The position numbers and the translations under genes are program-made. A stretch of DNA of 64,000 nucleotides from Daejeonella lutea (lineage in GTDB: Bacteria > Bacteroidota > Bacteroidia > Sphingobacteriales > Sphingobacteriaceae). The notes under the pieces are model-generated. The model made no database searches, was not told the DNA's origin, and saw only the letters and a list, made by a program, of their open reading frames with translations. The stretch spans positions 1,238,943 through 1,302,942 of the forward strand of contig NZ_FUYR01000001.1 in assembly GCF_900168015.1 (NCBI RefSeq). The letters are read 5' to 3'. This document shows positions 9,222-60,761 of the stretch, piece after piece (the stretch's first letter is position 1; every line of letters starts with the position of its first letter).

Positions 9222-10361
9222 TTAATTCATAACCATAATCCTCCTTCCCTTACCGTCTCCCTGCTGAACTTTAAAGCGGGCAACTTTTGATAGTTCGATC
9301 AGTTCCAAAATGTCCGTCACGTTGTCAAACCTGGAGACATTCCCCCATACTGTTTTATTTGGCACTCCCTTTTCATAGACCACATCCACATTATACCATC
9401 GTGCCAGCTTCCGCATAACGCTCGGCAGCGGCTCGTTCCTGAATATGAATTTCCCCTCTTTCCAGGCGACTGCATAAGAGGTATTAACCTGTGATATATT
9501 TAGCTTGCCGCCTGCAGAAAGTTCAGACTGCTCGCCGGGTTTCATGGTTCTTGATAATCCTTCGGTGGTAAGAATTTTTACAGAACCTTCAAGAAGGGTA
9601 GTAAATATTGATTTCTCTTCCTCATATGCGCTGATATTGAAATGTGTTCCAAGCACTTCGACGGTTTGATTATTGCTTCTAACTCTGAATGGCCTTTCCC
9701 GGTCCTTCGCAATCTCGAAATACCCTTCCCCCTGAAGGTCAACCTTGCGCTCATCCTTGCTAAATTGAACAGGATATTTAAGTGACGAAGCTGCATTCAG
9801 CCAGACTTTGCTGCCGTCGGGAAGTACGATCTGGAACTGCCCGCCGCGCGGGGTCTCTATGGTATTAAACTTATTTTGATCTGCTGAAGAAACTGATAAG
9901 ACCTCGTATATCAGCTGTCCATCGGCTGTTTTGATGATCTGAATGCCGGCCTGCTGAGCTAGGGCACCATTCGCTGCATCTGTCAAAGATATCTTTGAAC
10001 CATCGGCAAGCGTTAGGTAGGCTTTGTTCCCGCCCGGTTTAATGGAATCTATTTTCGCCTGACTAACAGGAATTGTAGGTGGCTGTTCCCTGAAGAACCA
10101 CAATCCTGCAGAGATAATGATCATTGCCGCGGCTGCCGACGAATACACAGCTATTCTCCGAAGCAGGCTCCGTGAAGGTTTCGGCGCTATCCTTTGCTGG
10201 AAATCAGCAAATAACTCATCCTCCTGATCAACCCATTGCTGAAAGCTTTGGTCGCGAAAATTCAGGCTGTGATACCAGTTGTTCAGTTCCTCGAATTCCT
10301 CAGGTGTATAGCTGTTGGAATGATACTTTTCTAAAAGATAATTGAGCCTTTCGTCCTTCAT
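9222..10361 (-). CDS. FecR-family anti-sigma factor
   Basis: 379 residues. The cytoplasmic N-terminus has the ZAS-like EEFEELNNWY pattern. One membrane span (about 68-88, VYSSAAAAMIIISAGLWFF) follows a basic RR pair. The periplasmic FecR domain (about 165-265) contains FNTIETPRGGQFQIVLPDGSKV, and the C-terminal DUF4974 domain contains RKLARWYNVDV. The protein passes the signal from the STN domain of the SusC transporter to the ECF sigma factor. It is upstream of susC on the same strand and divergent from the sigma gene, which differs from the usual co-linear sigma-fecR-susC order. Confidence 0.94.
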   Translation of the reverse strand: MKDERLNYLLEKYHSNSYTPEEFEELNNWYHSLNFRDQSFQQWVDQEDELFADFQQRIAPKPSRSLLRRIAVYSSAAAAMIIISAGLWFFREQPPTIPVSQAKIDSIKPGGNKAYLTLADGSKISLTDAANGALAQQAGIQIIKTADGQLIYEVLSVSSADQNKFNTIETPRGGQFQIVLPDGSKVWLNAASSLKYPVQFSKDERKVDLQGEGYFEIAKDRERPFRVRSNNQTVEVLGTHFNISAYEEEKSIFTTLLEGSVKILTTEGLSRTMKPGEQSELSAGGKLNISQVNTSYAVAWKEGKFIFRNEPLPSVMRKLARWYNVDVVYEKGVPNKTVWGNVSRFDNVTDILELIELSKVARFKVQQGDGKGRRIMVMN

Positions 10362-13351: not shown

Positions 13352-13403
13352 TAACGAATTCCTGGCGAATGCACATAACGACAGTTTTCTATTTGTAAAG
13401 AAT

Positions 13404-13443
13404 AATGAATGGAGGTCAGAAATTGGCCTCCATTCGTCATTTT
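13404..13443 (+). terminator. Terminator after the NHL/NAGPA gene
   Basis: Long inverted repeat with arms GAATGGAGG and CCTCCATTC, extended by ATGA/TCAT, about 11-nt loop, followed by a short TTTT. It lies 50 bp past the stop codon. The remainder of the 413-bp gap up to 13764 shows no gene that I can support. Confidence 0.65.
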
Positions 13444-13764
13444 GAGCTTAAATTGAACAAACTAATTATGCATGGAGGGGCAAACAAATAATGGTTTTAG
13501 TCTAACATAAAAATCGCTAACAAGACGCCGGAAGACGCCGAAAAACCATCATCCAATCAACTTCCTCGCCGGATTAAACCTGACAGCTCTATCAATTTGC
13601 AGGCAGAATGTAAATCCGATGCCGCTACTGAATGATCAGATCCACTATGGCATTTTGTTCATGGTCCATTAGAAGTTCGAATTAAAAACCAAGTCCCCCT
13701 TTAATTGTTATACTGACATTACAAAAAGGAAGATAAAACTCACATTCTTTAACCAGGCTATTAC

Positions 13765-14130
13765 ATGACCGGCACAAACAATAAAAGAATACTAATCGTC
13801 GACGATAATGAGGATATATCTCAGGTTGTCGGCATGGTTCTGAGTGACAAAGGGTACGATGTTCACTCCCATTCTACCGGCGCTGATATCATTTCTACGG
13901 TGCTGAATGTAAATCCAGATCTGATCCTGATGGATATCATGCTCGGTGAATATGACGGGCGTGAGCTTTGCACGATGCTGAAGGACAATGAAGAAACCTC
14001 GGAAATTCCGATCCTGCTGGTGTCCGGTGCACACGATCTGCATCCGAAGCAAAATCGGGCAGATGGTTTTATCTCAAAGCCATTTGATATTGATTATTTG
14101 CTGCTGAGGGTTGCGAGAACGATTAATTAG
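13765..14130 (+). CDS. Stand-alone response regulator receiver domain
   Basis: 121 residues covering only a CheY-like fold. Acidic pocket Asp13-Asp14, phospho-acceptor Asp57 in DLILMDIML, switch Ser87 in LLVSG and Lys105 in ISKPF are all present. No output domain. Such single-domain receivers relay phosphate or act on partner kinases. No kinase is adjacent; the nearest are the GAF kinase at 21945 and the closely similar receiver at 24243. A heptamer repeat tract begins directly after its stop codon. Confidence 0.92.
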   Translation: MTGTNNKRILIVDDNEDISQVVGMVLSDKGYDVHSHSTGADIISTVLNVNPDLILMDIMLGEYDGRELCTMLKDNEETSEIPILLVSGAHDLHPKQNRADGFISKPFDIDYLLLRVARTIN

Positions 14131-14196
14131 GTTGAGGGTTGACGGTTGACAGTGGACAGTTGAGGGTTGAGAGTTGAGAGTGGACAGTTGATAGTG
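14131..14196. repeat. Heptamer tandem repeat tract (GTTGACA / GTTGAGA type)
   Basis: About nine degenerate 7-bp units such as GGTTGAC, AGTGGAC, AGTTGAG and AGTTGAT, starting immediately after the receiver stop codon. Same family as the other heptamer tracts in the window. Confidence 0.75.
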
Positions 14197-14319
14197 CCAG
14201 GGACACCCGGTGTTTGAAAGGAACTCACAGCCCATAGCTCACAACCCATTGCTTCAGAAATCCATCATTTTTGGCGTCATGTTTCGTATACATCTAGTCT
14301 AACCAAATAAATTATCTAA

Positions 14320-14811
14320 ATGAAAAAGATACTTCTTTCAGCAGCGATAGCATTATTTGCGGTCTCTGCATTTGCACAATCAAATAGTGCATCTAAAAAA
14401 CAAAAAGATCCCAATAGCCAGTCTACTGACAAAGCAGCAAAAGATAAAGACTGGAAATTTGATGGTGATCAATACGATGTGAATCAGGACGGTGACTTCT
14501 CACCCGAAGAACGTGAAGCACGCCGGGCGGCGAAAATGGCCTGGAAAGAAAACCGCAAAGCTGATCGCAACGACGATGGTATCCTGAATGGCTCAGCAGG
14601 GCATCCTGATAATCATGGCAGTGATGTGAGTAGTATAGCGCGTGGAACAACGCTTGAAGGCCGCGAAAAAGGCGAAAGAGTAAGGGATGTTGCACGCTCT
14701 AACGGAAAGTCAAGAGAAAGAATGCAAGGCGCAAGCACAGCAAACAAACCCGCTAAAGTTGGCAGAACTGCCGGTGCTGGCAGGACAACTGGAGCAGGAC
14801 GTAAGAATTAA
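14320..14811 (+). CDS. Secreted EF-hand-like protein with basic C-terminal tail
   Basis: 163 residues. Signal peptide MKKILLSAAIALFAVSAFAQ, then a Ser/Lys-rich segment, then two calcium-binding-like loops: DVNQDGDFSPEE (a good EF-hand loop) and DRNDDGILNGS. The tail is basic and Gly/Arg-rich with two imperfect copies of GRTAGAGRTTGAGR-like sequence. Function unknown; the loops suggest Ca2+ binding in the periplasm and the tail suggests binding to an anionic surface. Single gene, followed by a strong terminator. Confidence 0.75.
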   Translation: MKKILLSAAIALFAVSAFAQSNSASKKQKDPNSQSTDKAAKDKDWKFDGDQYDVNQDGDFSPEEREARRAAKMAWKENRKADRNDDGILNGSAGHPDNHGSDVSSIARGTTLEGREKGERVRDVARSNGKSRERMQGASTANKPAKVGRTAGAGRTTGAGRKN

Positions 14812-46645: not shown

Positions 46646-46944
46646 GATTGGTAAATTTAGATTTAAGGGAAAAGCTTCCTTGCGGAAGCTTTCCAATGTG
46701 AGCGTTAAGAATTACGTGGTAAGGCAAAGGTTACTGTGGTAGTGATGACAATTGTTGAATCTGAAAAAGGAGCGGTGTGACTTTTTGATTTACCGAACGT
46801 AAAGCAACCAGACTTTTTCAATAGGGCGAATTTTGCTTTCTGTGTTTTCATAAATTTCTATATTTATGATAAAGAAGCGCCCTCTACTTTTTTCTACCTA
46901 ATCTTTTACATTAACACCAGAACCTACTTGATAAAAGCGGCTCG

Positions 46945-48021
46945 ATGCGTGATTTAGTTTTAAAAAATATCCCTGAGAAGCGTTATACAATATACTACCA
47001 TGTAGTTGCCTGGGTAGTATTTATCTGTTATGAAGTGACTTTGTCGGCCGCCATAAGAGGGTCATACAATCATTACTCTGATTACCTATTTCATTACCCG
47101 CTTTATATTATTCTATTTTACGTACACTGTTTTATAATTTTGGCAGATTTATCTGTTAAGACGGTAATTGATTTCGTCAAGTTGTCTCTTTTTCTCGGCC
47201 TAGAACTTGCAGTTTATTATGGGTTGAATGTCTTAATAAATAACTATCTGGCCGCGAGCGGTTGGGAAGTAAATGTTATTGATCCGTCGTCACGATTATT
47301 TCATTTAGGAACGTTCTACCGGTTTTTGTACATCGCTGGTTTAAGCACTGGATTTCGTATAGCGTTAAACTTGTTAGCAAGTCAAAGACGAAACATCGAA
47401 TACTTGACTGAGACTTTAACTCATCAGAAAGAGAAAGAGTCGCTAAAAGCTGAATTGCTTAACTCCGAATTATCGTTCCTCCGATCCCAAATCAACCCTC
47501 ACTTCCTTTTCAATTCACTGAACTCTGTGTACAACCGCATTCGTAAAAATGATCCAAATAGTGCTGAATATGTGATGGCATTAGCGGATCTGATGCAATA
47601 TGCGCTGAAGCCACAGGCTGCCACAGAGGAGGTTCCGGTGGAAGATGAGTTGGACCATATTAGCAATTACTTCAAACTGCAGCAAATGCGATACTCGGCG
47701 CATATTGATTTAAAGATCTTTAATGAGGATCGGGAGCTGAAGATTATTCCTTTGTTATTGATCAGCTTGGTGGAAAATGTTTTTCAACATGGTGATCTGA
47801 ATCGAGCAGATATTCCCCCGATTATTGAGATTAGCGTTTTGGATGGGCAACTCAACCTGCAAACCAGCAACTACACCAGAACGGATCCGAGACGAGGCAA
47901 TGGAGTTGGTTTGACCAATACACGTAAGCGGCTGGAATTGCATTATCCAGGCAGGTATAGCCTTGAATATGGAGCTGATAAGAATATTTTCAAACTCAAA
48001 TTACATCTTAACCTAAAATGA
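46945..48021 (+). CDS. LytS-type membrane histidine kinase
   Basis: 358 residues. Four membrane spans at about 18-150, then a His_kinase (PF06580-like) domain with His186 in RSQINPHFLFNSLNSV and a catalytic ATPase region ending GNGVGLTNTRKRLELHY. Paired with the LytTR regulator 1 bp downstream. Signal unknown. Confidence 0.93.
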   Translation: MRDLVLKNIPEKRYTIYYHVVAWVVFICYEVTLSAAIRGSYNHYSDYLFHYPLYIILFYVHCFIILADLSVKTVIDFVKLSLFLGLELAVYYGLNVLINNYLAASGWEVNVIDPSSRLFHLGTFYRFLYIAGLSTGFRIALNLLASQRRNIEYLTETLTHQKEKESLKAELLNSELSFLRSQINPHFLFNSLNSVYNRIRKNDPNSAEYVMALADLMQYALKPQAATEEVPVEDELDHISNYFKLQQMRYSAHIDLKIFNEDRELKIIPLLLISLVENVFQHGDLNRADIPPIIEISVLDGQLNLQTSNYTRTDPRRGNGVGLTNTRKRLELHYPGRYSLEYGADKNIFKLKLHLNLK

Positions 48022-48022
48022 T

Positions 48023-48766
48023 ATGTCAGATTATAGCTGTTACATTGTAGATGATGAAGCTGATTCACTTGAGATCCTGCAAGATTATGTAGCGCAGACA
48101 CCCAGTCTTTCACTTACTTATTCCACTAACAATCCACGGGACATTTTCTCGGTTATACCCAAGGATGGCAAACCTAAAATCACTTTCCTGGATATAGAGA
48201 TGCCTGGTATTACAGGCTTGGAACTCGCCGGATTGATCAATTCTCATACAGCGGTGATCTTTGTTACCTCGCATTCCGAACATGCATTAGAAGCATTTGA
48301 AAAAGATGCTTATGATTTCCTGGTCAAACCTGTTTCTTACCCGAGGTTCCTGAAAGCAGTTGCTAAAGTGCAGAGCCGGATACAAAGCGAAGTCAATTCT
48401 GCCCCACAAGAAGAAACTTACTTCTATATCCGGGGAAACCGACAGGGTGAACTCATAAAAATTCATTTTAATGAAATCCTGTACCTCGAATCACTGCAAA
48501 ATTATGTCAAGCTGCATACGGAAAAAGGTACTCACATTACCTATTTAACGCTTAAGGAATTTGAGTTTAAGCTCAACCGGAATAATTTCCTAAAAGTCCA
48601 CAAGAGCTATGTTGTAAATCTCGACAGTATTGCACGCCATATCGATAACAAGCTCTACATGAAAAATGAATTCGCAGTACCCATTGGGGCAAGCTACCGG
48701 CAGGAACTGCTGATCAGATTAAAAAATAGAATTTTTTCTACGGACCGCCGAAAAACCGGCGATTAG
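48023..48766 (+). CDS. LytTR-family response regulator
   Basis: 247 residues. Receiver with Asp57 in ITFLDIEMPG and Lys102 in FLVKPVSY; LytTR DNA-binding domain at about 140-245 (EILYLESLQNYVKLHTE; NNFLKVHKSYVVNLD). Expected to bind DNA repeats near its targets. Partner of the kinase at 46945. Confidence 0.94.
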   Translation: MSDYSCYIVDDEADSLEILQDYVAQTPSLSLTYSTNNPRDIFSVIPKDGKPKITFLDIEMPGITGLELAGLINSHTAVIFVTSHSEHALEAFEKDAYDFLVKPVSYPRFLKAVAKVQSRIQSEVNSAPQEETYFYIRGNRQGELIKIHFNEILYLESLQNYVKLHTEKGTHITYLTLKEFEFKLNRNNFLKVHKSYVVNLDSIARHIDNKLYMKNEFAVPIGASYRQELLIRLKNRIFSTDRRKTGD

Positions 48767-48861: not shown

Positions 48862-49854
48862 TTATTTCCTCAAATCTGCTATGATATGATTTTGAATTCG
48901 AGTCGTTAGGGGCGTAATTTGATTTTGGTATTCAACAGGGAGGCTTAAGTTGGATATATCAGCAATCGTTTTGGTAAACTCATATCGTCGGGCTTGCATA
49001 GCACTGTCAGCCTTCCACTCCATAAGTTTGAACTCAGCGTCTATTTGCTCATCTGTAAATCCCTGCTCCTTTTTAGCAGCCCTCATCTGCGGCATCTGCG
49101 CTCGACGTTGTTCTCTCATCTGAACATGTTGCTGCATTAAATTGTCGTTCGAGATCTGCGGTAAAAGGCTTTCATTTAAATACTTCATTACCACAATATC
49201 CCGTGCAAGTGCATTTGCAACAAGACTGTTGTTCATACTATAGGTATCATCCCAAAACACCCCGGCAAAAATATTAGCGCCTTCCACTGGCACGGTTCTA
49301 AAATTGCAGTACTTTCTATCTGTGAATGTGAAATATGAATTGTTTTGATTTTGAGCTGTGAGCCAATTAGATAGTGGAATAGACTGATTGGGGTTGGTAG
49401 GCAGGTCTATAACCATCGTATCGGTAAATGTTTTGCCGTTCACAATTCTCTTCTGAAGTATGGCCGCTGCTACATGAAAACCCCAATAGATGCTGTCATT
49501 TTTCGTGAGGTGATTTGGGTCAGGCATCTTTAACTGCACACCAAACCCGTTCGGATAAATCATGTTTTTAGCAAAATTCCAAACCTTAAAAGTCTCCATA
49601 TTGAACTTAGCCTTGAGCCACAAACTAATATAATGTGATTTGAAATTACACCCGGAGTTTATGTAACGATAATCAAAATATTCACTTGTCTTAACGCTCT
49701 GAATTGCGGCCTGTACTTCCGCAGCCGAATATGCCGGATAATTTTTAAGATTTACAGCATATTCGTTAACACTGAAATGCGACTGGCCACTTCCCTTGGA
49801 ATAGCTTGCTATGATAATAAATGCGACAAGAAAACTTTTAACGATCGCTTGCAT
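48862..49854 (-). CDS. Exported protein-glutaminase/papain-like enzyme
   Basis: 330 residues with a signal (MQAIVKSFLVAFIIIASYSKGSGQ). It resembles protein glutaminase: Cys69 in NSGCNFKSHYISLWLK, then KVW (90-92), His127 in YWGFHVAAAIL and Asp150 in TMVIDLP, matching a Cys-His-Asp triad in order and spacing. Known relatives deamidate protein glutamine side chains or act as papain-fold hydrolases. A helical C-terminal part (QMREQRRAQMPQMRAAKKEQ) follows. Third gene after the LanB-like gene and the 49878 gene, 23 bp from the latter; a processing or modifying role is possible but unproven. Confidence 0.72.
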   Translation of the reverse strand: MQAIVKSFLVAFIIIASYSKGSGQSHFSVNEYAVNLKNYPAYSAAEVQAAIQSVKTSEYFDYRYINSGCNFKSHYISLWLKAKFNMETFKVWNFAKNMIYPNGFGVQLKMPDPNHLTKNDSIYWGFHVAAAILQKRIVNGKTFTDTMVIDLPTNPNQSIPLSNWLTAQNQNNSYFTFTDRKYCNFRTVPVEGANIFAGVFWDDTYSMNNSLVANALARDIVVMKYLNESLLPQISNDNLMQQHVQMREQRRAQMPQMRAAKKEQGFTDEQIDAEFKLMEWKADSAMQARRYEFTKTIADISNLSLPVEYQNQITPLTTRIQNHIIADLRK

Positions 49855-49877
49855 ATAGTTGTTATTAAATTTGAGGT

Positions 49878-50669
49878 TTAGTTAATTATATCCTTAAAGA
49901 GTTTTCCGCTTATTGCACCGCCGATAGTTACCTGTCCATTAGTCAAACCCTTAATTTTTGCCCCACCTATTACAGGTAATGCAAAAAAGAAATGTGTATC
50001 GTTAAACCATAAGTCAACATTTAATTCTCCCCCCCAAAAGCCTGTCTTGGTTGTTCCAAATATTTTCTGCTTAAAGTCATCTTCCGTTGAGGCGTCGCCC
50101 TTAAATCCCCGGTAGGACAAGCCCAGATCAGCTGTTGCTGAAATCGTTGATTTTGGCCCTTCATGGTTAAAAAGAAAACGCGTAAGCTGGGCTTTTAGAC
50201 TTAATGGAGTTGCCTTATACGTCACCGCGTCTTGTCTCCAGTCAACAGAGGCAGCAATAAACGAAGTATTATAACCCCATTTGTTACCGGGTTTAAAAAC
50301 TGATCGCAAATCAAATTGGAAAGAGTGTCCACCATTTCCAGGCAATAACAAAGATCCCCCGTTAGACTTATCTCCAGTAAAGTCTATAGTCGAATTATTT
50401 TGCAGGGAGAAAATGAGATTTCCCTGAAGACGTCCTTCTTTATAAAACGAAACACCGGTTGATCCTTTCCCGAGACTCTTATCAGATTCACCGTTCAGTC
50501 CGTCGAAAAGACCGGCTGCTCCGATTATGTCGAATTTTAGATCGGTATCGGTTATTGTGCTATCCAGGAAATTAGGTTTCTGGGACTTGTTAATGTAGTT
50601 CGGCCCCATTTGCGCCAAGGCTGTTAAAAATAAAAGCTGCGCAAAAATAAATGTGAAAGTTGTTTTCAT
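49878..50669 (-). CDS. Exported beta-rich protein, possibly outer membrane
   Basis: 263 residues. Signal MKTTFTFIFAQLLFLTALAQ, then a strand-rich region with alternating hydrophobic residues (GNLIFSLQNNSTIDF; LNVDLWFNDTHFFFALP). No recognised family. It lies between LanB (71-bp gap) and the glutaminase-like gene on the same strand, so the three look like one operon. Confidence 0.6.
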   Translation of the reverse strand: MKTTFTFIFAQLLFLTALAQMGPNYINKSQKPNFLDSTITDTDLKFDIIGAAGLFDGLNGESDKSLGKGSTGVSFYKEGRLQGNLIFSLQNNSTIDFTGDKSNGGSLLLPGNGGHSFQFDLRSVFKPGNKWGYNTSFIAASVDWRQDAVTYKATPLSLKAQLTRFLFNHEGPKSTISATADLGLSYRGFKGDASTEDDFKQKIFGTTKTGFWGGELNVDLWFNDTHFFFALPVIGGAKIKGLTNGQVTIGGAISGKLFKDIIN

Positions 50670-50740
50670 AAGCTTAGTTTATCGAATTTAATTATATATA
50701 TATAACTGTAACTGGTGGATTTCCACCATTTTAACTTTCA

Positions 50741-53533
50741 TTATTCCCGATCGAACACGGATTGAGATGCAAGGGCTCTGGCGATTTTTGCCGCGAAATA
50801 ATATGAGCGAACTTCGTTGTCACGTTGATCATGAAGAAAAAGCCTGTTAAGATGCATATGATTTATATCTATGATCATCTGCGGCTTTGTCCACGACGGG
50901 AGAGCCATAACAGCTATCCGGACATATTCCAAATATTGCTTCTCTAATGAGGTGCCGACATGTCGACCAACATGTTGCAGCAGTTCGCGCCGATAAGATC
51001 TGAATTGGGTATCGAAGTCAATTCTCTTACTCTTCCCCAGATTTCCTGTAACACCTTCGCAAAGCTCGTGTAAGTCTGATAAAGAGAAATTCAGTGCATT
51101 AAAGAGGATAAGCAAATGATTAACTGCAGAGAAAATCAGCTTTTCTTCACTTCCTGGCCCAGCATCGCTCAGCTCTGATAAAACAATTTCGCTGCTCATC
51201 TCAAAAATCCGCTCTGCTTTTTCAATGCCTATAGGTGCATACCTCTCCGTCTCCTTGAAATAAGTCGACAATTCGATCTTTCTTATGTTGGGTAATAGGC
51301 GCAGCTTGCTTTCCAATTCCTGATATCGCTCCAAGAGAATCGCGTACCGGATGTTCACCTGTTTCACCCGAAGCCGTAAATGAAAGTCATCATCATAGTA
51401 GCTGATAAAAAACCAGGAAACGATATTGCCACTATCCAGATTTTCTTTGATAAAGGGCTGAATGAAGTTTAGCAGCAAATCGGGATAACCTGCAGGATGC
51501 AGGTAAATCTTAAGGTACAGCCACTCATCAAAAGGCAGCAACTTGCTCTTCGATTCATGCATGAGTATTTCGCGCCCGACGAGGTTCGGATAGCTTATCT
51601 CCCTATTGGTCAGAAAAGCGATACACTCGTGTGTATATCCATTATCCTGTTCATCTTTCACCATGGTTTCCTGACTTTTAAAGTATTCCCGCAGTATGAC
51701 CTTGCCGGCTACAGGGATAGTTTGCAGCAACAGTGCAACATCCTCTCCAAGGGAGCGATTAATGTGGAGCAAATGATCGTGAACTTCGTAATAGAATTCT
51801 TCGGGGAGATTTATCCGGGAGGCAAATTCGTTGAAGGCGGAGAATTGCGTTGTAGGATACTCTCCGGCAGCTGGAAAGAGTTCCTTAGCGTTCATTCGCC
51901 AGGAGGCCGCTTCAAGTATTACGTCTTTATAGACTACTCTTGGATAAAAAGCTAGTCCGGGGAAAAGCCCGGCCATACTGAAGTTTAAATTTGAATCAAG
52001 TCCCTCGTGCTGCAGATCACAAAGAAAACGAAATACTGGCAGCGTACTCCGATGGAAGTTATAGGCATTACTATACCGGGGGATTACCTGTTTGTTCAAC
52101 CGGGCAGAGCGTAGAATAAGTCGATTGTTTACCAGGGATACATACAAATCGCCCAGATCTAAAACAAATTCGTCCTGAACATCCGGTGCTTCAAAAAAAG
52201 GAATCTGGTATTGGTAAACTGTGGCCCTGGTGTTCACACTAGCTACATCCGGGCCATCTACATGCAAGATCTCAGCAAACACTACTTCCGGGTTATGGTT
52301 GATCTCCACTGAAGCAAGCTCCTTCGCGACATCCAGGATAACTGAGTCAAGAGCGGTGAAACGACCGATCATATTCAGGCTGCTAGCTCCTCCAGCAGCT
52401 TTAACATGGAGCTTGTCGCCCAGGGAGCTGAACATGACTGCCATGCCGGGAGGATAGACTCTCTCACTGGTTTTCAGGCCGGCGAGGTCGCTATCAGATA
52501 TCTCCAGTTCGGGAATTGAACCTTTATGGCTCGTCCATTTAGAAAGCAGCAGCTCATGCAGTGGCGACCATGGGATGCCCGCAGCTCCTGCCTGTCTTTC
52601 GGCCGAGCTATTACCAGTCAATCCGTCGTAGTCTATTCCGAGCTCCGGGTCCAGCGCTTGCAGCAAGGGTACTGTTCTCCTGTCGAAAAGCTTCTCAAAT
52701 CGTGTTTTAAATTGAGTTAATGCTGCAGACTCATGCCTGATACTGATCTTCTCCAGGCAATGAATACCCTGTCGGATCTTCCGCTCTATGCCCGTAGGTA
52801 AAGAACCATCCACACGCACAGTACAATAAGAATCGTATTTTGATCCCGGAGCCTTCCTGGGTTTCGCCGCCAATAAAACGGGGTACTCTTGCAGGCTTTT
52901 ATGAGCCGGCAGGATGATCTGCAAGTTTTTTAGCTGATCAGCAAACTCATTAAGCTCAGCGTTATTGATGCCGTGTTCCCGAATTAAATTCTCCAGATAT
53001 TTATTGCTAAAGGAACCGTGTTTTGAGATAAGCTTTCCTATTAAACCGGAACCGAAAACCTCGGAAATTGAAAATGTAGATTGAGAACCATTTTCCGTTT
53101 TCGTAAGAACTCGAAAATCCTCGCCGTAAGGGTAAAGAAATGGATTGACGCGATAGGAGGAACACTGACTTATATCAGATGTTTTATGCTTTTCTTTTAC
53201 AAGCGCTCTAAACGAATCAGTTTTAACAATTATCCCGGATTCTCCGACGATTGGAACAAGCGCCACTCCAGCAAAAGTTCCGAAAGGTGTTGGCCTGTAG
53301 CACATTCGCTTCTGGTATTTTGCCAGGGAATGCCTTACTTTCTTACTGCAAGCATTCAACTCAAAATCGTTTTTCTCCAACTCCTTGTAAAGTGAATCAC
53401 TCGCCAGGTAAAGGGCCTCTCTGAACACCGGATCCTTGAGCATTTCATCCATCCCAGCCCCTGCCCTATTTACAGGAAATCGTGGTACACGCAGAATGAT
53501 CCGGGGATGGAGATCGTAGTTCATCATAGGCAA
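50741..53533 (-). CDS. LanB-type lantibiotic dehydratase, full length
   Basis: 930 residues; the true start may be any of three Met codons within the first four. The N-terminal glutamylation domain shows KRMCYRPTPFGTFAGVALVP (about 75-95), a hallmark of LanB. The C-terminal elimination (SpaB_C-like) domain begins at about 655 with WLYLKIYLHPAGYPDLLLNF and contains VSWFFISYYDDDFHLRLRVK. LanB enzymes use glutamyl-tRNA to dehydrate Ser/Thr in a precursor peptide. No LanC cyclase and no clear precursor are in the window, so the locus may be a different RiPP type, a stand-alone dehydratase, or one whose precursor is elsewhere. Confidence 0.92.
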   Translation of the reverse strand: MPMMNYDLHPRIILRVPRFPVNRAGAGMDEMLKDPVFREALYLASDSLYKELEKNDFELNACSKKVRHSLAKYQKRMCYRPTPFGTFAGVALVPIVGESGIIVKTDSFRALVKEKHKTSDISQCSSYRVNPFLYPYGEDFRVLTKTENGSQSTFSISEVFGSGLIGKLISKHGSFSNKYLENLIREHGINNAELNEFADQLKNLQIILPAHKSLQEYPVLLAAKPRKAPGSKYDSYCTVRVDGSLPTGIERKIRQGIHCLEKISIRHESAALTQFKTRFEKLFDRRTVPLLQALDPELGIDYDGLTGNSSAERQAGAAGIPWSPLHELLLSKWTSHKGSIPELEISDSDLAGLKTSERVYPPGMAVMFSSLGDKLHVKAAGGASSLNMIGRFTALDSVILDVAKELASVEINHNPEVVFAEILHVDGPDVASVNTRATVYQYQIPFFEAPDVQDEFVLDLGDLYVSLVNNRLILRSARLNKQVIPRYSNAYNFHRSTLPVFRFLCDLQHEGLDSNLNFSMAGLFPGLAFYPRVVYKDVILEAASWRMNAKELFPAAGEYPTTQFSAFNEFASRINLPEEFYYEVHDHLLHINRSLGEDVALLLQTIPVAGKVILREYFKSQETMVKDEQDNGYTHECIAFLTNREISYPNLVGREILMHESKSKLLPFDEWLYLKIYLHPAGYPDLLLNFIQPFIKENLDSGNIVSWFFISYYDDDFHLRLRVKQVNIRYAILLERYQELESKLRLLPNIRKIELSTYFKETERYAPIGIEKAERIFEMSSEIVLSELSDAGPGSEEKLIFSAVNHLLILFNALNFSLSDLHELCEGVTGNLGKSKRIDFDTQFRSYRRELLQHVGRHVGTSLEKQYLEYVRIAVMALPSWTKPQMIIDINHMHLNRLFLHDQRDNEVRSYYFAAKIARALASQSVFDRE

Positions 53534-53613
53534 TCGAAATTACCCCGAGACTCTACGCCTTCGACATGATGTAGCCTGCTATTAAACCGTGTTCATCAAG
53601 CGAGTTGCGACGA

Positions 53614-53637
53614 TGGTGTAAATAAATTCTTACACCA
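53614..53637. promoter_or_regulatory. Inverted repeat upstream of LanB
   Basis: TGGTGTAA (53614-53621) and TTACACCA (53630-53637) with an 8-nt spacer, 80 bp upstream of the LanB start and about 90 bp upstream of the divergent HTH gene. Candidate operator for the HTH protein. Confidence 0.45.
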
Positions 53638-53729
53638 GCAGATATCGTCCAAATTCATCTGAAAATAGAGGTAAGCGTGCCCAACCAAAGTACGGCTTAA
53701 CCCTTAAGCGGAATTTTAATAGCCGGAAT

Positions 53730-53948
53730 ATGAATTCCTATCGTTCCCACGGACAACATCTGAAGGTGATGCTGGAAATGCTTGAAAAAGGCCGCTTCAT
53801 TTCCCGCCAACAGGCTGCACGATATTTCGATTGCAGTGAGGATACAATCACAAATTGGCTTAACGAGCTTCGGGACGAAGGCCATGAGATACACTTTTCC
53901 CGCTCCCTCCAGCGATACGTTTTGAAAAAAAACGACGACAAAAAGTAA
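53730..53948 (+). CDS. Small HTH protein (HTH_11-like)
   Basis: 72 residues: MNSYRSHGQHLKVMLEMLEK, then GRFISRQQAARYFDCSEDTI followed by TNWLNELRDEGHEIHFSR. A single winged-helix-like HTH with the DTITNWLNELRDEG recognition region. Divergent from the LanB gene and upstream of MauE-like and DUF6520 genes; likely local regulator. Confidence 0.75.
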   Translation: MNSYRSHGQHLKVMLEMLEKGRFISRQQAARYFDCSEDTITNWLNELRDEGHEIHFSRSLQRYVLKKNDDKK

Positions 53949-54003
53949 AGCTGAATTTTTTTCCGTTTTGGTCTTTTTTCTTTACATGCATAAATCAATT
54001 ACT

Positions 54004-54420
54004 ATGAAATGCCCGCTCATTGTTACAATCACTTCTGGACTGCTCATCCTTCTGTGGTCCTATGCAGCAGTCAGTAAGCTTGCAGTATTCTCATACTTTA
54101 AAAGTCAAATGAGCAAGCAAGTTTTTACGGCAGAGGTGGCGGATATTTTGGTATACCTGGTCCCCTTTACTGAATTAGTACTGGCGGGCTTGCTTTGCTT
54201 CACCCTGACCCGGATCTACGGATTTGTGCTGTCGGCAGTCTTATTAGCTTGGTTTAGTATTTATATCGTCCTGATCCTGGCAGGCGTATTTGGCAAAATA
54301 CCCTGCTCTTGCGGCGGCGTATTATCGCAGCTTGGATGGTCCGAGCATCTTGCATTCAATCTTGTCTTTTTAGCATTGGCGCTTATAGGATTTGTTTCAT
54401 TAAAAAAGGAGGTCGCATAA
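54004..54420 (+). CDS. MauE/DoxX-like redox membrane protein
   Basis: 138 residues from ATG 54004 (two earlier in-frame Met codons exist at 53968 and 53986). Four membrane spans. Conserved AAVSKL after span 1 and the loop KIPCSCGGVLSQLGWS, with a Cys-x-Cys pair typical of MauE-like redox membrane proteins. It may feed disulfides to exported proteins. Followed by the DUF6520 peptide gene; a TlpA-like gene lies in the same region at 59463. Confidence 0.83.
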   Translation: MKCPLIVTITSGLLILLWSYAAVSKLAVFSYFKSQMSKQVFTAEVADILVYLVPFTELVLAGLLCFTLTRIYGFVLSAVLLAWFSIYIVLILAGVFGKIPCSCGGVLSQLGWSEHLAFNLVFLALALIGFVSLKKEVA

Positions 54421-54540
54421 GAAAATAATAATGGGAAATGGGCTGAAACTTTAAGAAAGTGAGAGGCCAGTGTGTTGATTAACAAAAATATAAACCAAAG
54501 TTTTTCGCTTGCTTTTTGATCTAAAAAAGCATTCCTAATT

Positions 54541-54837
54541 ATGAAAAATTTCAAAATCAATTTCGGTCTAATTGCTTTAATACTGGGTTCATTTGTTGCT
54601 TTCGCATTCAAAGCACCAGAAGCAAAACAAAATATTGGAAGTTCAATCCAATGGTTTTCTTATAATCCGCTCGCAGGTGATCCGGATGATCCCCAAGCTT
54701 ACAGCGAATTACCTGGCGAGCCTGAATGTAATGGTGATGCAGATCTTTGTGCTATACAGGCAGAAGAAGATGGCATTAGTGGAAAACCAACACAAGCCGG
54801 AGTAGATTCTCCTGTGGCGGTTAGAGAGGAGCTTTAA
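54541..54837 (+). CDS. DUF6520 small exported protein
   Basis: 98 residues. Signal MKNFKINFGLIALILGSFVAFAFK, then a short mature part with a WFSYNPLAGDPDDPQAYSEL stretch and a Cys-x6-Cys pair in ECNGDADLCAIQ. This is the DUF6520 pattern, often next to MauE-like genes. The Cys pair could be oxidised by the neighbouring redox system. Not lanthipeptide-like (few Cys, no Ser/Thr-rich core). Function unknown. Confidence 0.75.
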   Translation: MKNFKINFGLIALILGSFVAFAFKAPEAKQNIGSSIQWFSYNPLAGDPDDPQAYSELPGEPECNGDADLCAIQAEEDGISGKPTQAGVDSPVAVREEL

Positions 54838-54850
54838 ACTATAAAAAAAG

Positions 54851-54873
54851 GTAAGACCCGGGCAGGGTCTTAC
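54851..54873. terminator. Bidirectional terminator between DUF6520 and susD
   Basis: Perfect 9-bp stem GTAAGACCC / GGGTCTTAC with a 5-nt loop (GGGCA). An A-run on the left and T-rich bases on the right let it serve both converging genes. Confidence 0.8.
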
Positions 54874-54886
54874 TTTAACATTCGTT

Positions 54887-56242
54887 TTAATTTTGTGCCA
54901 TCCCACTAGCTTCAATAACTTTTCGCGGAATTAAAAACACATAGTTCTTTTCCGCTGGAAGCACGTAAACCACACCTTTCGACACTTTAGTTATAGTAGT
55001 ACGATAGCGCGCCTCGGCTTTCAGCCGGTTTATATCTCCCCATCGGAGGTTTCTAAAAAGCAGCTCCTTTCTACGCTCTTTCAAGATCAGGTCGAGAGCC
55101 TCCTGATCTGTACCAGCCTGAAAATTTACAAAACCGGGCTGCTTATATCTTTTGGCAGCGAGCTTATTCAAATAATCCAACGCTTTTGCACGATTTCCTA
55201 TTCTTGACGCGCACTCGGCTGCGATAAGATAAAGCTCATCACTTGCCATCCCGCCGAAGTTAGTCAGTGAACCCACATAGCTTCCCCGGAACTGGATGTC
55301 TGCCGGACCGTTGCGCCTGAAAAATAAACTTTTTCGCAGGTCGTCTGCTCTGTATTCGTTGTATAAAATTTCGTCCGCGCAGGCATATGGGTAAGCGAGA
55401 GCCCTGTCTTGAACTAGTGAAGCATGAAAGATCACTTCCTCATTGTAGCGCTTAAACGGAAAGGTAGCAGCTGCGCTTAATGAGTTATAGTCCATTAGAG
55501 TTGGGAATAACTGCAGTGCTTTCTCAGCATTGATCAAAGATTGACTGTAATCATTCATGCTAAGATAGACACGCGCCAGGAGAGCATATCCCGCTGCCGT
55601 CGTCGGTTCTGTCCTGAACGTTACATTTTCAGGAAGCAGTTTCACAGCTTCGGTCAGGTCGCTTACAATTTTATCGTAGCATTGCCTGACACTAGACCTT
55701 TTCGAAACCTCGTTGATATCGGAATTCAATTTAAGGACAATGCCAGGATCCTGTGAAGCAGTAGTAACATTATAGGGTCTGGCAAATTCCTGGAGGAGCG
55801 TATAAAAGGCGAAAGACCGAAATAATAGTGCCGAGCCTTTAACAGTATTCCATAACTGCTGTTCTGAAGCTCTGGGCTGAATCTTATCCGTTCCCTCAAG
55901 CACAAGGTTTGTGTTAATTATAACAGCATAAGGCAAGGCCCAATCATTCCTCGCCTTATCGTTAAAGACATCACTTTGCCATAAATAAGAATTTACGGAT
56001 GTTATCGATACCTGCGCGACCGGATCGAACTGTGTATCCCGTATAAAAATATTATCAGAGGCTGCTTCACCCAATGCCGGCACCTGCTGGTTCATTGTAT
56101 TCGTATCATCGAGCAAGAGCTTCAAATTGCTTAGATTGTCAGAAGGCACCGCAAGCTTTTTATCAGGTTTCACTTCCAGATATTTCTCGCAGGATATGCT
56201 GAGACAGCTCAATAATATGATCAGGCTATATTTTATTTTCAT
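54887..56242 (-). CDS. RagB/SusD-family outer-membrane lipoprotein (second locus)
   Basis: 451 residues, shorter than usual. Begins MKIKYSLIILLSCLSISC with lipobox Cys, then EKYLEVKPDKKLAVPSDNLS. SusD core pattern: LLFRSFAFYTLLQEFARPYN, then ILKERRKELLFRNLRWGDINR near the C-terminus. Downstream partner of susC at 56273 (30-bp gap). No carbohydrate enzymes are adjacent, so the ligand may be a peptide or other molecule. Confidence 0.92.
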   Translation of the reverse strand: MKIKYSLIILLSCLSISCEKYLEVKPDKKLAVPSDNLSNLKLLLDDTNTMNQQVPALGEAASDNIFIRDTQFDPVAQVSITSVNSYLWQSDVFNDKARNDWALPYAVIINTNLVLEGTDKIQPRASEQQLWNTVKGSALLFRSFAFYTLLQEFARPYNVTTASQDPGIVLKLNSDINEVSKRSSVRQCYDKIVSDLTEAVKLLPENVTFRTEPTTAAGYALLARVYLSMNDYSQSLINAEKALQLFPTLMDYNSLSAAATFPFKRYNEEVIFHASLVQDRALAYPYACADEILYNEYRADDLRKSLFFRRNGPADIQFRGSYVGSLTNFGGMASDELYLIAAECASRIGNRAKALDYLNKLAAKRYKQPGFVNFQAGTDQEALDLILKERRKELLFRNLRWGDINRLKAEARYRTTITKVSKGVVYVLPAEKNYVFLIPRKVIEASGMAQN

Positions 56243-56272
56243 GATTCTTTGGTTTAATGACTTGAGATTAAA

Positions 56273-59200
56273 TTAAAAACTCGTACGTAGTCCGAACGAT
56301 AAGCTATAAGACGGGGTCAGCGGAGAGCCCGGATAATCGGGGTCGAGGCCTGATTGATTAGATCTCCAGAGAAAGCCAGGGTTTCTGACGTTAGCAAACA
56401 GGATCATACCTTTTAGCGGCACCTTAACACGTTCTCCCTGGAACTGGTAAGAGAAATTCACGTCCTGCAGCCGGATATGGTCGCCCTTTTCGACGAGAAC
56501 GGCCGAGTTTAGATAGAAATTATCTCTGGCCGCAACCGCGGGATAAACCCTTGAGGGCACAATAGTATGCTGTTCGTCACCGGGCTTTTGCCACCTCTGC
56601 GAATAGTCGCCATGGCCCCCGCCCCTGCTATATAATTGCGAATAGGAAATGGATTGGCGTCGGAAGTAATATCCAAATTTGTAGGTAAGGTTGAAGTAGG
56701 CAGAAAAGCCCTTATAAGAAACTGTATTCCCCAATGCACCAAAGACAGGCGGCAGAGCAGGACCGTGAAAGACAAGGTTATCTACAGTAGTGGTGGAGGC
56801 TATAGCCTGATAATTCGATACCGCCTGGCCATTCACGTATCCCATGGGATCGCCGGTATTCGGATTCAGACCAGCCCAGGGATAACTATAAAGACTATAA
56901 ACAGGCTTTCCTTTAAGTGGGACAACACCCCGGCCGCTATTTATATAGGATTCCGCTGAAAACGCGCCTTCATTATAATATGATTTAAGCTCGTTGGCAT
57001 TGTAGCTAAATATGAAATTAGAATTCCATTTAACCTTTCTGTCAATGTTTAATGAATTGATCTGTAAATCTACACCGCGTGTTACCATATCCGCTACATT
57101 GCGGCGGATAGTTCCTGACACTAAACCGTTGGTTGGATCGATTGGCTGATCCCCAATAAGATTATTCCCGTTTTTGATATAGTATTCTATGCTGCCGTTT
57201 ACCCTGCTGTTTTTGATTCCAAAATCGACCCCCGCATTGAGCACACCCACGGTTTCCCAGCTAAGTTCCGGATTGGGATAGGAGCGGATCTGGGCATATG
57301 GGCTGCTGTTGAAATTCCCGCTGAACTGGGTAATAGTGGCTATTGCTGAAAGATTTCTATCAAGGTTACCGTTATAACCATAGGTCAGTCGTAATTTCAA
57401 ATGGTCCAGGGAATTGAAGTGATAGAAATCTTCGTTGTGCAAATTCCAGGCAAAACCGGCAGACCATAATGGCACTCCTTTCTGGTTGCTTTTAACGCCA
57501 AACAAATTAGAAGCATCTCTCCTTCCGCTGGCTGAAATGATATAGCGATTATCATAAGTCCAGGCCGCATTCGCGAACCAGGCTGTATACCGGTTAAGCT
57601 GGTCTGTAAAATCATTCCCTTTAGGTATAGCCTGATTGCTCAGGGGATTTTGGTACATCGGGAACTGATCAATCAAATTCACGGGGACATTTGAGAGCCC
57701 ATCATCTGAATAACCATACGTGAGGTAGGCATTTCCTTTGACGCCCACATCACGGATTTCCGCTCCACCAAGTACATCTACACGGTGTTTAGCCCATGCC
57801 TTTTGATATTCTAGTTGCCCTCGCCCGGTATGACTGGCAATTGCGGTTGAGTTCAGATTCAGGATATCGCCGCGTGGGACCTCGAACCTTAAGGCGCCAG
57901 CACTATTAGCTTGCGTAAAGCGGTTTATGAGATCGCGGGCAAAATAGCTCTCCACTCCTTTCCAGTCCCGGTAATCAGTCCTGCTATTCTCAAACTGGTA
58001 CTGAACCTTTGCAGTCAGGCCTGAAAGAATCTGATAATCCACCCCCATATTTAAAATCAGTGATTTTTGGTCCGTCCTTAATTCCTGGTATTTATAGTCT
58101 TCCAGGGGCCTGTACTGCCAGTTGAGTAGGCCTTTATCTTCAATGTTGGTTACAAAGGAAGTGCGGTAATCCTTGGTTAATATCGCTGGATTACCCTGGT
58201 CATCAGCCAGGCGCGCATAAGGATATAGGGTTGTGTTCTGCCCGGGAAAAATCTCTCCTATACCCGGCATTCCAGCTATCTCTTTTCCGCTGCTGTAGGC
58301 GATATTCGGCCTGATCTTCACTTTTTTGCCTAGTGAAATCACCTCATCCGCGCGCAGTGTAAGCCGATCGTACTGCCCTGAAGTAAAGTTAGTGTTCTTA
58401 TCAAAACCGGCTGATACGTAATAGCTATTCCATTCAGACCCGCCATGGACATTGACCGCATACTGCTGGTTAAAGCTGTTCTTATAGATGTATTTCTCAA
58501 AATCATCCATGACATTATTGGATGCTAGTCTTGCCAACTGTTCATCGGCAGCCGCGGGAGACAACTTACCATCACGACGCGCTATCAGGATTTCCACTAC
58601 TGGCGACAATCCTGGTCGTGAAGGATCTTTTTCTAATGCGCTATAAAAACCTTTATCAAACAGAGTTTTTTCTTCATTGATTAATTCGGCTGATGAAATC
58701 GTGCGGTTATAGCCAAGGTCTGGTTGGTTCCCTATACTGAAGGTCGAATTGAATCCAACTTCGGGCTTTTTATTTGCGCGGCCCTTTTTTGTGGTAATCA
58801 CAATTACACCATTTGCGGCTCGTACGCCCCAGATAGATGCCGCAGCGGCATCTTTTAAAATGGAAATACTCTCCACGTCATTGGGATTGATATCCTTTAT
58901 ATTTCCCTCATATGGAAAGTTGTTCAATACAACCAGCGGTGCCTGGCCAGCGAAGATTGTGCTAAGCCCCCTGACGCTTACCTTCGGCTCCCCCTGATTT
59001 CTCTCATCAAAAAGAACGCTGTTCGTTACACCCTTTAGGCGGCCAAGAATATCGGTTGTGTTAGTACGGTTAATGGTGTTCTGATCAATGAACACGAATG
59101 AACCCGTGCTCCGTTCCGCTGGAACCTGATAGTAGCCTGTACTCACACTAACCTCTTCAAGCTGCCGGCTTATCGGGAGCAGCACTGCCACGATTTTTTC

Positions 59201-59461
59201 CGACCGTAATGAGGTAACGGCCAAGGTTAGCGGCTTATAACCAACAAAAGTTATGTATAGCGAGTCTGATGCATAAGTGGAACGCAAGATAAAATCACCA
59301 TTAGCATCGGCGGAAGTACTTGTCCCAGCTTTTTTCAGTATTACAGAAGCTCCCGGCAGAGGCTCTCCCGATTGCGTAAGTACCCTGCCTTTTATATCTT
59401 CCTGCCCTAAACAATAGAGCGCGGAGAGTATCAAAACCATTATGATAGCTATTGTCTTCAT
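56273..59461 (-). CDS. SusC-family TonB-linked outer-membrane transporter (second locus)
   Basis: 1062 residues. Signal MKTIAIIMVLILSALYCLGQ, then carboxypeptidase regulatory-like domain at about 22-105, plug with RLKGVTNSVLFDERNQGEPK and VSVRGLSTIFAGQAPLVVL, barrel, and end YSLSFGLRTSF. No STN domain, and no FecI/FecR pair nearby, so it is not regulated like the first locus. Stop of the TlpA-like gene is 1 bp upstream of its start. Confidence 0.94.
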   Translation of the reverse strand: MKTIAIIMVLILSALYCLGQEDIKGRVLTQSGEPLPGASVILKKAGTSTSADANGDFILRSTYASDSLYITFVGYKPLTLAVTSLRSEKIVAVLLPISRQLEEVSVSTGYYQVPAERSTGSFVFIDQNTINRTNTTDILGRLKGVTNSVLFDERNQGEPKVSVRGLSTIFAGQAPLVVLNNFPYEGNIKDINPNDVESISILKDAAAASIWGVRAANGVIVITTKKGRANKKPEVGFNSTFSIGNQPDLGYNRTISSAELINEEKTLFDKGFYSALEKDPSRPGLSPVVEILIARRDGKLSPAAADEQLARLASNNVMDDFEKYIYKNSFNQQYAVNVHGGSEWNSYYVSAGFDKNTNFTSGQYDRLTLRADEVISLGKKVKIRPNIAYSSGKEIAGMPGIGEIFPGQNTTLYPYARLADDQGNPAILTKDYRTSFVTNIEDKGLLNWQYRPLEDYKYQELRTDQKSLILNMGVDYQILSGLTAKVQYQFENSRTDYRDWKGVESYFARDLINRFTQANSAGALRFEVPRGDILNLNSTAIASHTGRGQLEYQKAWAKHRVDVLGGAEIRDVGVKGNAYLTYGYSDDGLSNVPVNLIDQFPMYQNPLSNQAIPKGNDFTDQLNRYTAWFANAAWTYDNRYIISASGRRDASNLFGVKSNQKGVPLWSAGFAWNLHNEDFYHFNSLDHLKLRLTYGYNGNLDRNLSAIATITQFSGNFNSSPYAQIRSYPNPELSWETVGVLNAGVDFGIKNSRVNGSIEYYIKNGNNLIGDQPIDPTNGLVSGTIRRNVADMVTRGVDLQINSLNIDRKVKWNSNFIFSYNANELKSYYNEGAFSAESYINSGRGVVPLKGKPVYSLYSYPWAGLNPNTGDPMGYVNGQAVSNYQAIASTTTVDNLVFHGPALPPVFGALGNTVSYKGFSAYFNLTYKFGYYFRRQSISYSQLYSRGGGHGDYSQRWQKPGDEQHTIVPSRVYPAVAARDNFYLNSAVLVEKGDHIRLQDVNFSYQFQGERVKVPLKGMILFANVRNPGFLWRSNQSGLDPDYPGSPLTPSYSLSFGLRTSF

Positions 59462-59462
59462 A

Positions 59463-60761
59463 TTAATTGTGGTTTATGAGGTGAGAACGAGATGAATGTT
59501 GGTTGTCTGTAGAGTAAAAGACCAGTATATCGATCGGCCGGTCAGCCTGCTCGATCATTAGTCCATATTTAGCGAGCTCAGCATTTAAGCCAGCGACACT
59601 ATTAATATCTCCTCTGAAGGATATATCTGCCCTGCCTGAAAAATTCGTTTCATCAAGAACGGGCAGGCCACCAGCAAGATCTGCTATATAGTCGGTCAAT
59701 ACATTGAGAGTGGAATTCACCATCGCCTTTTTATCCTGGCCATTTTTTTTCAGGTTACTAGAAGCCAGTGCTCCGCCTGTCTCGAGTTTCACCTTTCCCG
59801 GTATCGTGCGCAGGACATAACAGGTTGATATTCTATTTTCCACGCGTGCAGATCTACCGAATAGCTTTTCGAGATCGTCCAGCATAAAGTTGTGGATCCG
59901 ATCGCCCAAGGACGCTGGCAGGCTTAGCTCATAGCAGTACTTATTTGCCCCTTTGTCAATAGCGATTGTTCGATCAATGGTCATTGGGGGAACAGCATTT
60001 TGGTAGGCGATCCGGTTCATAGGCCATCTGTACCCTGGCAGCTTCAGGGCTAAAAAGAACAAATTCAATTCTCCCTGGTTTATAGCTTTCATCTGCACTA
60101 CACTGCTATCCTTGCGGATCGACATCCCTCCGGGTACACCTTCTGAATAGCCAGATAGCACCGAATAATATAAGCTGCTGGTGTGAGCTGCACTCGACAC
60201 TGAAAAAAGAGGCTCCCTAGAGTTATATTGCATATTATCCGATTTTGGGGAGCTGAATACATATGGCTTGCCTTCCATTATCCGGCTAATGACGTTTACA
60301 TTAACATCCTCAGAGCTCGTAATCCCCAGGATTCTCTGATCCCGACCGATCCATACCATGTGCGGATATAGGTAATGGGGGAATATTTTGTTTAATGTAA
60401 GGTCTTCGGAAATCAATGTCTGATTGGATAATCCCCTTTCAAGAGCAATAGCTTTCATTCGATCTAAAGAGCCCTTTCCAACAGAAATTATCTTCAGATT
60501 GCCATCAAAGCTTTTTTCCAGTTTGGCTGTTTCTGAAAGAAACTCGGTACTGGCCCGACAATTCGTACTCCAAAAACTGAGTATTAGCAACTTTCCTTCA
60601 TAATCTGTTGTCTTAAATTCATGCTGGGTCGGGCTCATAATGTTCTTAAGGAAAGTTTCAGGGAGTTTATCCCCTATTCTGAGCGCTATTTGTGCCAGGG
60701 CGGGCTTTGCCCAAAAAAAGCAAAGCATAGCCACAGCGATATATTTTATCGTTTTTTTCAT
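59463..60761 (-). CDS. TlpA-like thioredoxin-fold protein with DUF3738-like C-terminus
   Basis: 432 residues. Signal MKKTIKYIAVAMLCFFWAKPALAQ. Thioredoxin fold at about 28-165 with the active-site region LSFWSTNCRAST: Cys68 is kept but the second Cys is Ser71 (CxxS), so it is a monothiol variant. The C-terminal part (about 300-420; LPVLDETNFSGRADISFRGD) resembles DUF3738 seen in soil Bacteroidota proteins. First gene of the susC-susD series. Periplasmic. Role unknown; a sensor, isomerase or chaperone role is possible. Confidence 0.8.
   Translation of the reverse strand: MKKTIKYIAVAMLCFFWAKPALAQIALRIGDKLPETFLKNIMSPTQHEFKTTDYEGKLLILSFWSTNCRASTEFLSETAKLEKSFDGNLKIISVGKGSLDRMKAIALERGLSNQTLISEDLTLNKIFPHYLYPHMVWIGRDQRILGITSSEDVNVNVISRIMEGKPYVFSSPKSDNMQYNSREPLFSVSSAAHTSSLYYSVLSGYSEGVPGGMSIRKDSSVVQMKAINQGELNLFFLALKLPGYRWPMNRIAYQNAVPPMTIDRTIAIDKGANKYCYELSLPASLGDRIHNFMLDDLEKLFGRSARVENRISTCYVLRTIPGKVKLETGGALASSNLKKNGQDKKAMVNSTLNVLTDYIADLAGGLPVLDETNFSGRADISFRGDINSVAGLNAELAKYGLMIEQADRPIDILVFYSTDNQHSSRSHLINHN

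Follow-up and report, generated by a model that had tools for sequence, protein, structure and literature searches.

A threonine-rich peptide gene as the apparent precursor gene of a LanB dehydratase in Daejeonella lutea, beside genes for a sensor kinase and a LytTR regulator

We analysed a stretch of 64,000 nucleotides of Daejeonella lutea (contig NZ_FUYR01000001.1, positions 1,238,943 to 1,302,942; called here the window) that carries a gene for a LanB dehydratase. An initial annotation of the interval 48862–54837 had described this LanB locus as one with no clear precursor peptide. It appears that the precursor is encoded by a 48-residue Thr-rich peptide gene at 46705–46851, which was overlooked because it lies outside that interval. 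The peptide gene is conserved, is under coding constraint, is divergent from a sensor kinase gene and, at an expectation value (E) ≤ 1e-3, is restricted to LanB-containing genomes in the sample of its family. We consider it fairly probable that the peptide, the kinase, a LytTR response regulator and LanB make up a compact module for a dehydrated, non-lanthionine peptide that acts through the kinase. The parts of this module in the window are as follows.

46705–46851, minus strand: candidate LanB precursor peptide, 48 residues, MKTQKAKFALLKKSGCFTFGKSKSHTAPFSDSTIVITTTVTFALPRNS; top profile match; as in relatives, it is oriented away from the kinase gene
46852–46944, strand not applicable: divergent promoter region between the peptide and kinase genes, with a TTACAT box at 46906–46911 (box count compared with shuffles)
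46945–48021, plus strand: membrane sensor histidine kinase (PF06580), 358 residues, E 5.8e-25, with four hydrophobic stretches in its N-terminal half according to plain hydropathy
48023–48766, plus strand: LytTR response regulator, 247 residues, LytTR E 1.3e-20, Response_reg E 1.8e-15
50741–53533, minus strand: LanB dehydratase, 930 residues from a TTG start, with Pfam and NCBIfam matches

The open reading frame (ORF) of the peptide lies 3.9 kb from LanB and is separated from the kinase gene by 93 bp. The main profile was built from 36 related peptides, picked by their position upstream of a kinase gene, with the window peptide excluded; the starts of several training peptides were trimmed by eye. 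When the 670 ORFs of the window were searched with it, the ORF at 46705–46851 ranked first (E 9e-6), the runner-up having an E of 1.1. With a stricter profile of 32 peptides, from which the peptide of the same genome and three of the same genus had also been dropped, the window peptide was found with E 3.6e-5 among 1656 ORFs from seven loci. E values of six further left-out peptides ranged from 1.9e-8 to 2.2e-5; the ORF that followed them had 0.99. With a control profile of reversed peptides, the best E was 0.037. Ten peptides were also tested against family models; none reached an NCBIfam model or matched above the Pfam cut-off. The initial annotation had recommended 53534–53729 and intergenic regions nearby as places to look for short ORFs. 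On the LanB strand 53534–53729 holds just one chance-like ORF of 30 residues with a TTG start, which has no Thr-rich tail and received no profile score.

Among 86 unique peptides, Lys made up 22% of the N-terminal half, and Thr and Ser made up 23% and 9% of the C-terminal half (Thr is 6% in window ORFs of at least 150 residues). A DPT motif was present in 64 of the 86; Cys in the C-terminal half and GG were each seen in 10. The window peptide has no Cys in its C-terminal half, and its sole Gln, at position 4, belongs to the leader half. The peptides evolve as coding sequence: pooled over 256 peptide pairs, which have sequences in common, the nonsynonymous value (pN) was 0.125 and the synonymous value (pS), often close to saturation, was 0.627. 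In the relatives, a short Thr-rich ORF is found immediately upstream of the kinase gene on the opposite strand. Divergence from the kinase was observed for 88 of the 89 profile matches, a count that is partly circular as the training peptides were picked by position; the exception, L080, has its kinase in two pieces. It may be noted that seven loci (L107, L108, L109, L110, L111, L113 and L114) carry three to six similar peptides in tandem between the kinase and regulator genes.

A peptide alignment (A1; 35 rows, window included) was then used to search 399 genomes of one family, which by its named relatives is the Sphingobacteriaceae. Matches were obtained in 168 genomes at E ≤ 0.1 and in 131 at E ≤ 1e-3, and LanB was present in 219 genomes and absent from 180. 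All 131 genomes of the stricter set also had LanB, and none was among the 180 that lack it (Fisher p 3e-46). Among the 168 genomes matched at E ≤ 0.1 were 15 without LanB, with E values of 0.0065 or weaker. LanC was missing from 74 of the 131. In the genus of the window, six of the eight LanB genomes had the peptide and no LanC; the remaining two (G042 and G056) had LanC beside LanB and no peptide match. A sample of the order (201 genomes) yielded 83 matches and one of the phylum (196 genomes) yielded 5, all of the latter and, among the matches listed, all of the former falling in the same family; more distant peptides may escape a profile that is tailored to one family. The genome of the window gave exactly two peptide matches, one beside each of its two LanBs. 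The second LanB locus (L003), about 70 kb away, has LanB at 11534–14638 and the peptide at 9503–9643, both on the minus strand, together with its own kinase and LytTR regulator, and has no glutaminase.

A peptide match was found with a kinase gene in 62 loci (the kinase being there by definition). The regulator was present in all 62 and LanB in 58, and none of the further gene families occurred in more than 13. A fairer test set comprised 15 loci from the genome-wide peptide search (L106–L119 and L122; L120 and L121 were excluded, having been taken for LanC). Kinase and regulator stood beside the peptide in 15/15 of these, and LanB in 11/15, including a 92-residue piece at the contig end of L119. 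In the window, the kinase/regulator pair (46945–48766, plus strand) is oriented toward LanB; the pair runs toward LanB likewise in L042 and L044, the loci of two of the three closest LanBs, and LanB adjoins the regulator in the closest relatives that have the pair. The distance between LanB and the kinase is 2.7 kb in the window, because genes are inserted between them, and 2.0 kb in L072; in all other loci with both it is within 2 kb. Six of 69 loci had no peptide match. In L043 the peptide is encoded in trans, the contig of L062 starts only at the kinase, L085 and L088 lack a full kinase next to LanB, and the LanBs of L092 and L093 are LanC-linked.

That LanB is full-length with both domains, as the initial annotation stated, was borne out by matches to Lant_dehydr_N (E 6e-72), Lant_dehydr_C (E 5e-43) and NCBIfam TIGR03891 (E 5e-33). 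The glutamylation and elimination domains (PF04738 and PF14028) are thus joined in one protein, of which they span most. As to its start, ATG codons two and three codons further in agree better with where the alignment of the relatives starts. Essential residues of NisB that are retained in MadB are listed in PMC12241602. In the printed alignment, R89, R93, T95, R483, R822 and R864 of MadB correspond to R76, R80, T82, R391, R722 and R764 of the window LanB. D295 and H892 (window numbering), present in 52/52 LanBs, are probably the counterparts of D308 and H1005, an assignment made without direct alignment. Judged by these residues, the window LanB is likely, though not certain, to be active as a dehydratase. 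An AlphaFold model on a four-row alignment had a mean predicted local distance difference test score of 47, too low for use.

The three closest LanBs are 51, 53 and 39% identical and come from genomes G119, G109 and G021, of the genus of the window. A scan of genome contigs with the LanB alignment led to the relatives Daejeonella sp. JGW-45, a Daejeonella metagenome-assembled genome and Flavihumibacter soli; one with the LanB sequence alone found no relative. In a FastTree tree of 64 LanBs, picked largely by similarity to the window LanB and subject to long-branch warnings, a branch with support 100 parted 59 LanBs, that of the window included, from 5. On the larger side 54 were within 6 kb of a peptide; the smaller side included three LanC-linked members. 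No match to LanC (PF05147) was found in the genome of the window (4.03 Mb in 10 contigs, listed as 99.98% complete). Hence, of the two possibilities raised by the initial annotation, a LanC elsewhere in the genome drops out, and a non-lanthionine dehydropeptide fits the Thr-rich, Cys-free tail.

The region between the peptide and kinase genes was compared over the loci. Of 62 such regions, 46 contained a TTACA[CT] box, where shuffled sequences gave 10.9 ± 3.4. Direct repeats at a spacing of exactly 21 bp were found in 16 of 56 regions, where 2.5 were expected (8.3 standard deviations (s.d.); 35 spacings tested). The filter for related loci was lenient in this test and some of the 16 are kin, a similar repeat being shared by L107, L108, L111 and L113, which are four of the strongest; a spacing of 28 was raised as well (3.8 s.d.). 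The 21-bp spacing corresponds to about two helical turns, as between the sites of LytTR regulators.

In the mechanism that we favour, LanB would bind the Lys-rich, aromatic leader of the peptide and, with Glu-tRNA, would glutamylate Thr and Ser residues of the C-terminal tail and then eliminate glutamate, giving dehydrobutyrine and dehydroalanine. The predicted product is a dehydrated peptide that lacks lanthionine, because the genome has no LanC and the tail of the window peptide no Cys. The mature peptide would act through the adjacent kinase. The LytTR regulator would then control the divergent promoter that peptide and kinase share, which would amount to autoinduction, and perhaps also neighbours that vary between loci. 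From their linkage, LanB is likely to modify the peptide. That the kinase senses it is a step toward which we lean slightly, and for autoinduction via the divergent promoter we see the chances as balanced. As the peptide stays with the kinase and regulator even where LanB is elsewhere, this kinase is the best candidate for its receptor, with the divergent promoter as the most probable target. It is a tentative extension, held with somewhat less confidence than any of these steps, that the module represents a widespread class of signalling in the Sphingobacteriaceae, in which a dehydrobutyrine-rich pheromone made by LanB is read by the kinase and LytTR regulator and controls interchangeable neighbours, LanB being an enzyme of signal maturation and not of lanthipeptide synthesis.

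Several results weigh against this scheme. The window promoter has the box and no clear second 21-bp repeat (best 6/10). A counterpart of D128 of MadB was not identifiable in the subgroup of the window LanB, which is shorter there. LanC is carried somewhere by 57 of the 131 peptide genomes, and the search at E ≤ 1e-3 gave no peptide for 88 of the 219 genomes with LanB. The LanB of L043 (G109) is without kinase, regulator and peptide, these three being on another contig (L106), and in 4 of the 62 loci no LanB is next to the peptide and kinase. Over the 62 loci, neither an exporter nor a protease is found repeatedly with the module, and the only C39 match of the genome is beside a GG-leader peptide of its own. 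To these is added the partial circularity of the position count given above. The C39 match belongs to a C39-type ABC exporter gene (L138, 6763–10122, minus strand) next to an 86-residue, Cys-containing, bacteriocin-like peptide with a GG leader; as it is so paired, we do not favour it as the exporter of the module.

Alternatively, the dehydrated peptide could be an effector, antimicrobial or otherwise secreted, whose production the kinase and regulator merely switch on in response to another cue. LanB products are usually effectors, and two-component systems often regulate bacteriocin clusters, as with LanK/LanR (PMC3091789). However, neither immunity genes nor exporter or protease genes recur with the module, the tandem peptide arrays sit between kinase and regulator, and peptide, kinase and regulator occur together in the four loci without an adjoining LanB. 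We therefore regard an effector role as unlikely, though it is the strongest competitor of the signalling role. The same four loci could be read in another way, with a peptide that binds or regulates the kinase in unmodified form and a LanB that has another substrate; the essential Asp that could not be identified in the window LanB would agree with this. Against it, the genomes of all four exceptions have LanB elsewhere, LanB is present in the other 58 loci, 0/131 peptide genomes (E ≤ 1e-3) are without it, and the tail is rich in Thr, as expected for a substrate of LanB. Such an unmodified ligand is improbable in our judgement.

Between the regulator and LanB lie two further genes.

48862–49854, minus strand: glutaminase-like protein with a signal-like N terminus, PF18626 E 1.7e-11
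49878–50669, minus strand: protein without family, with a signal-like hydrophobic N terminus and no Pfam or NCBIfam match

The relationship to glutaminase noted in the initial annotation holds for PF18626 and falls far short of the cut-off of the NCBIfam model for protein-glutaminase (14 bits, against 250); a PDB sequence search with this protein as query returned nothing relevant. The label outer-membrane-like for the second protein remains a guess, and BLASTP found no relative of it in the other fetched loci. The gaps between LanB, 49878–50669 and 48862–49854 (71 and 23 bp among the three minus-strand genes) are compatible with one operon, as had been proposed. The two genes are a local insertion, outside the module. 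Because of its signal-like N terminus, the glutaminase-like enzyme is probably active outside the cytoplasm, the compartment in which LanB works. The suggestion that this Cys enzyme cleaves off the leader, or acts on Gln in the LanB product, draws on its PF18626 match and its location two genes behind LanB on the same strand, and is hardly credible given that signal-like N terminus, the position of the one Gln of the window peptide in the leader half, the occurrence of homologues in just 5 of 399 family genomes (the own one included; absent from G119, G109 and G021) and the lack of a precursor-peptide match in the regions around the other four copies.

The module that we favour resembles several known systems in part. 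Like class I lanthipeptide systems (nisin, with NisA/NisB/NisC/NisRK, and Bacteroidota class I clusters such as those of the pinensins and of Pedobacter lusitanus), it has a full-length LanB that carries both the glutamylation and the elimination domain, a short Ser/Thr precursor with a leader and, as for nisin, a two-component system nearby; unlike them, the genome has no LanC, the tail is Cys-poor and Thr-rich, and the module holds no exporter or protease. With agr, ComCDE and plantaricin it shares the arrangement of a gene for a small peptide next to those for a membrane kinase and a LytTR regulator; the 21-bp-spaced direct repeats of some divergent promoters may be a further parallel to such LytTR pheromone systems. 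It differs from them in having LanB in addition and a kinase of the PF06580 type, and in lacking a recurrent processing exporter, whether AgrB-like or C39. Thiopeptides and linaridins have dehydrated Ser/Thr without lanthionine rings, as expected here. Thiopeptides depend on split LanB-like proteins together with azole enzymes, and linaridins on other enzymes; in the present loci, the one modifying enzyme that recurs is a full-length LanB.

According to Walker 2020 (PMC7268733), the Bacteroidetes have many class I systems, with LxLxKx5L/GG leaders and C39 proteases; in contrast, the leaders described here are mostly without GG. Marsh 2010 (PMC3091789) reports LanBs of Spirosoma and Microscilla, only one each near a LanC, and a survey of Bacteroidales (PMC10352776) reports no LanB in that order. 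In searches of the open full-text literature, which did not extend to Caetano 2020 and Bothwell 2021 (Pedobacter lusitanus; possible mentions of such LanBs), no paper was recognised that describes a combination of LanB, kinase, LytTR regulator and Cys-poor precursor. Possibly, the gene set represents a type of modified-peptide signal that has yet to be described. Genome mining that sets out from LanC would skip the window locus, because the genome has none. If correct, the proposal would provide a substrate for the LanBs of LanC-less genomes (74 of the 399 sampled have LanB and the peptide without LanC), predict a non-lanthionine LanB product and offer a ribosomal, enzyme-modified candidate signal for the Bacteroidota.

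On the other side of LanB, the window contains a cassette of six genes.

53730–53948, plus strand: helix-turn-helix protein, 72 residues, weak helix-turn-helix matches
53968–54420, plus strand: MauE-family membrane protein, E 9.3e-27
54541–54837, plus strand: small protein with a signal-like N terminus, sub-threshold DUF6520 match (19.3 bits, cut-off 25.4)
54887–56242, minus strand: SusD-like protein, SusD-like_3 E 2.2e-33
56273–59461, minus strand: SusC-like (TonB-dependent) receptor, Plug E 8.5e-13
59463–60761, minus strand: protein resembling TlpA-like proteins (named by eye), 26–32% identical by BLASTP to proteins next to LanB in L042 and L043

The helix-turn-helix and MauE genes were placed correctly by the initial annotation on the strand opposite to LanB; its DUF6520 gene was found at the position given, with a score under the cut-off. 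A whole-genome search for DUF6520 gave nothing at E ≤ 0.01, the controls being likewise empty. The helix-turn-helix protein has counterparts in L042 and L043 (65% and 74% identical). The cassette as a whole (53730–60761) looks like an interchangeable neighbour, and its MauE and TlpA-like proteins suggest thiol chemistry on the small exported protein. The DUF6520-like protein was rejected as a general LanB substrate, as it has a signal-like N terminus and MauE together with SusD accompanies LanB in only 11 of 52 loci.

Other neighbours were seen elsewhere. In L120 (33–13778), a LanC-type cluster with LanB, a C39 ABC exporter and LanC directly adjoins a peptide–kinase–regulator–LanB module, which might regulate it. 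A family of proteins of 331–417 residues is near the module in 13 of the 62 loci (for example, L050 5260–6255, L049 5233–6339 and L118 8068–9093); three members were tested and gave no Pfam match. Genes in two pieces were observed for LanB in L048 (2142–5174) and L062 (1200–4303) and for the kinase in L080 (2947–5242), and are either decaying modules or assembly errors.

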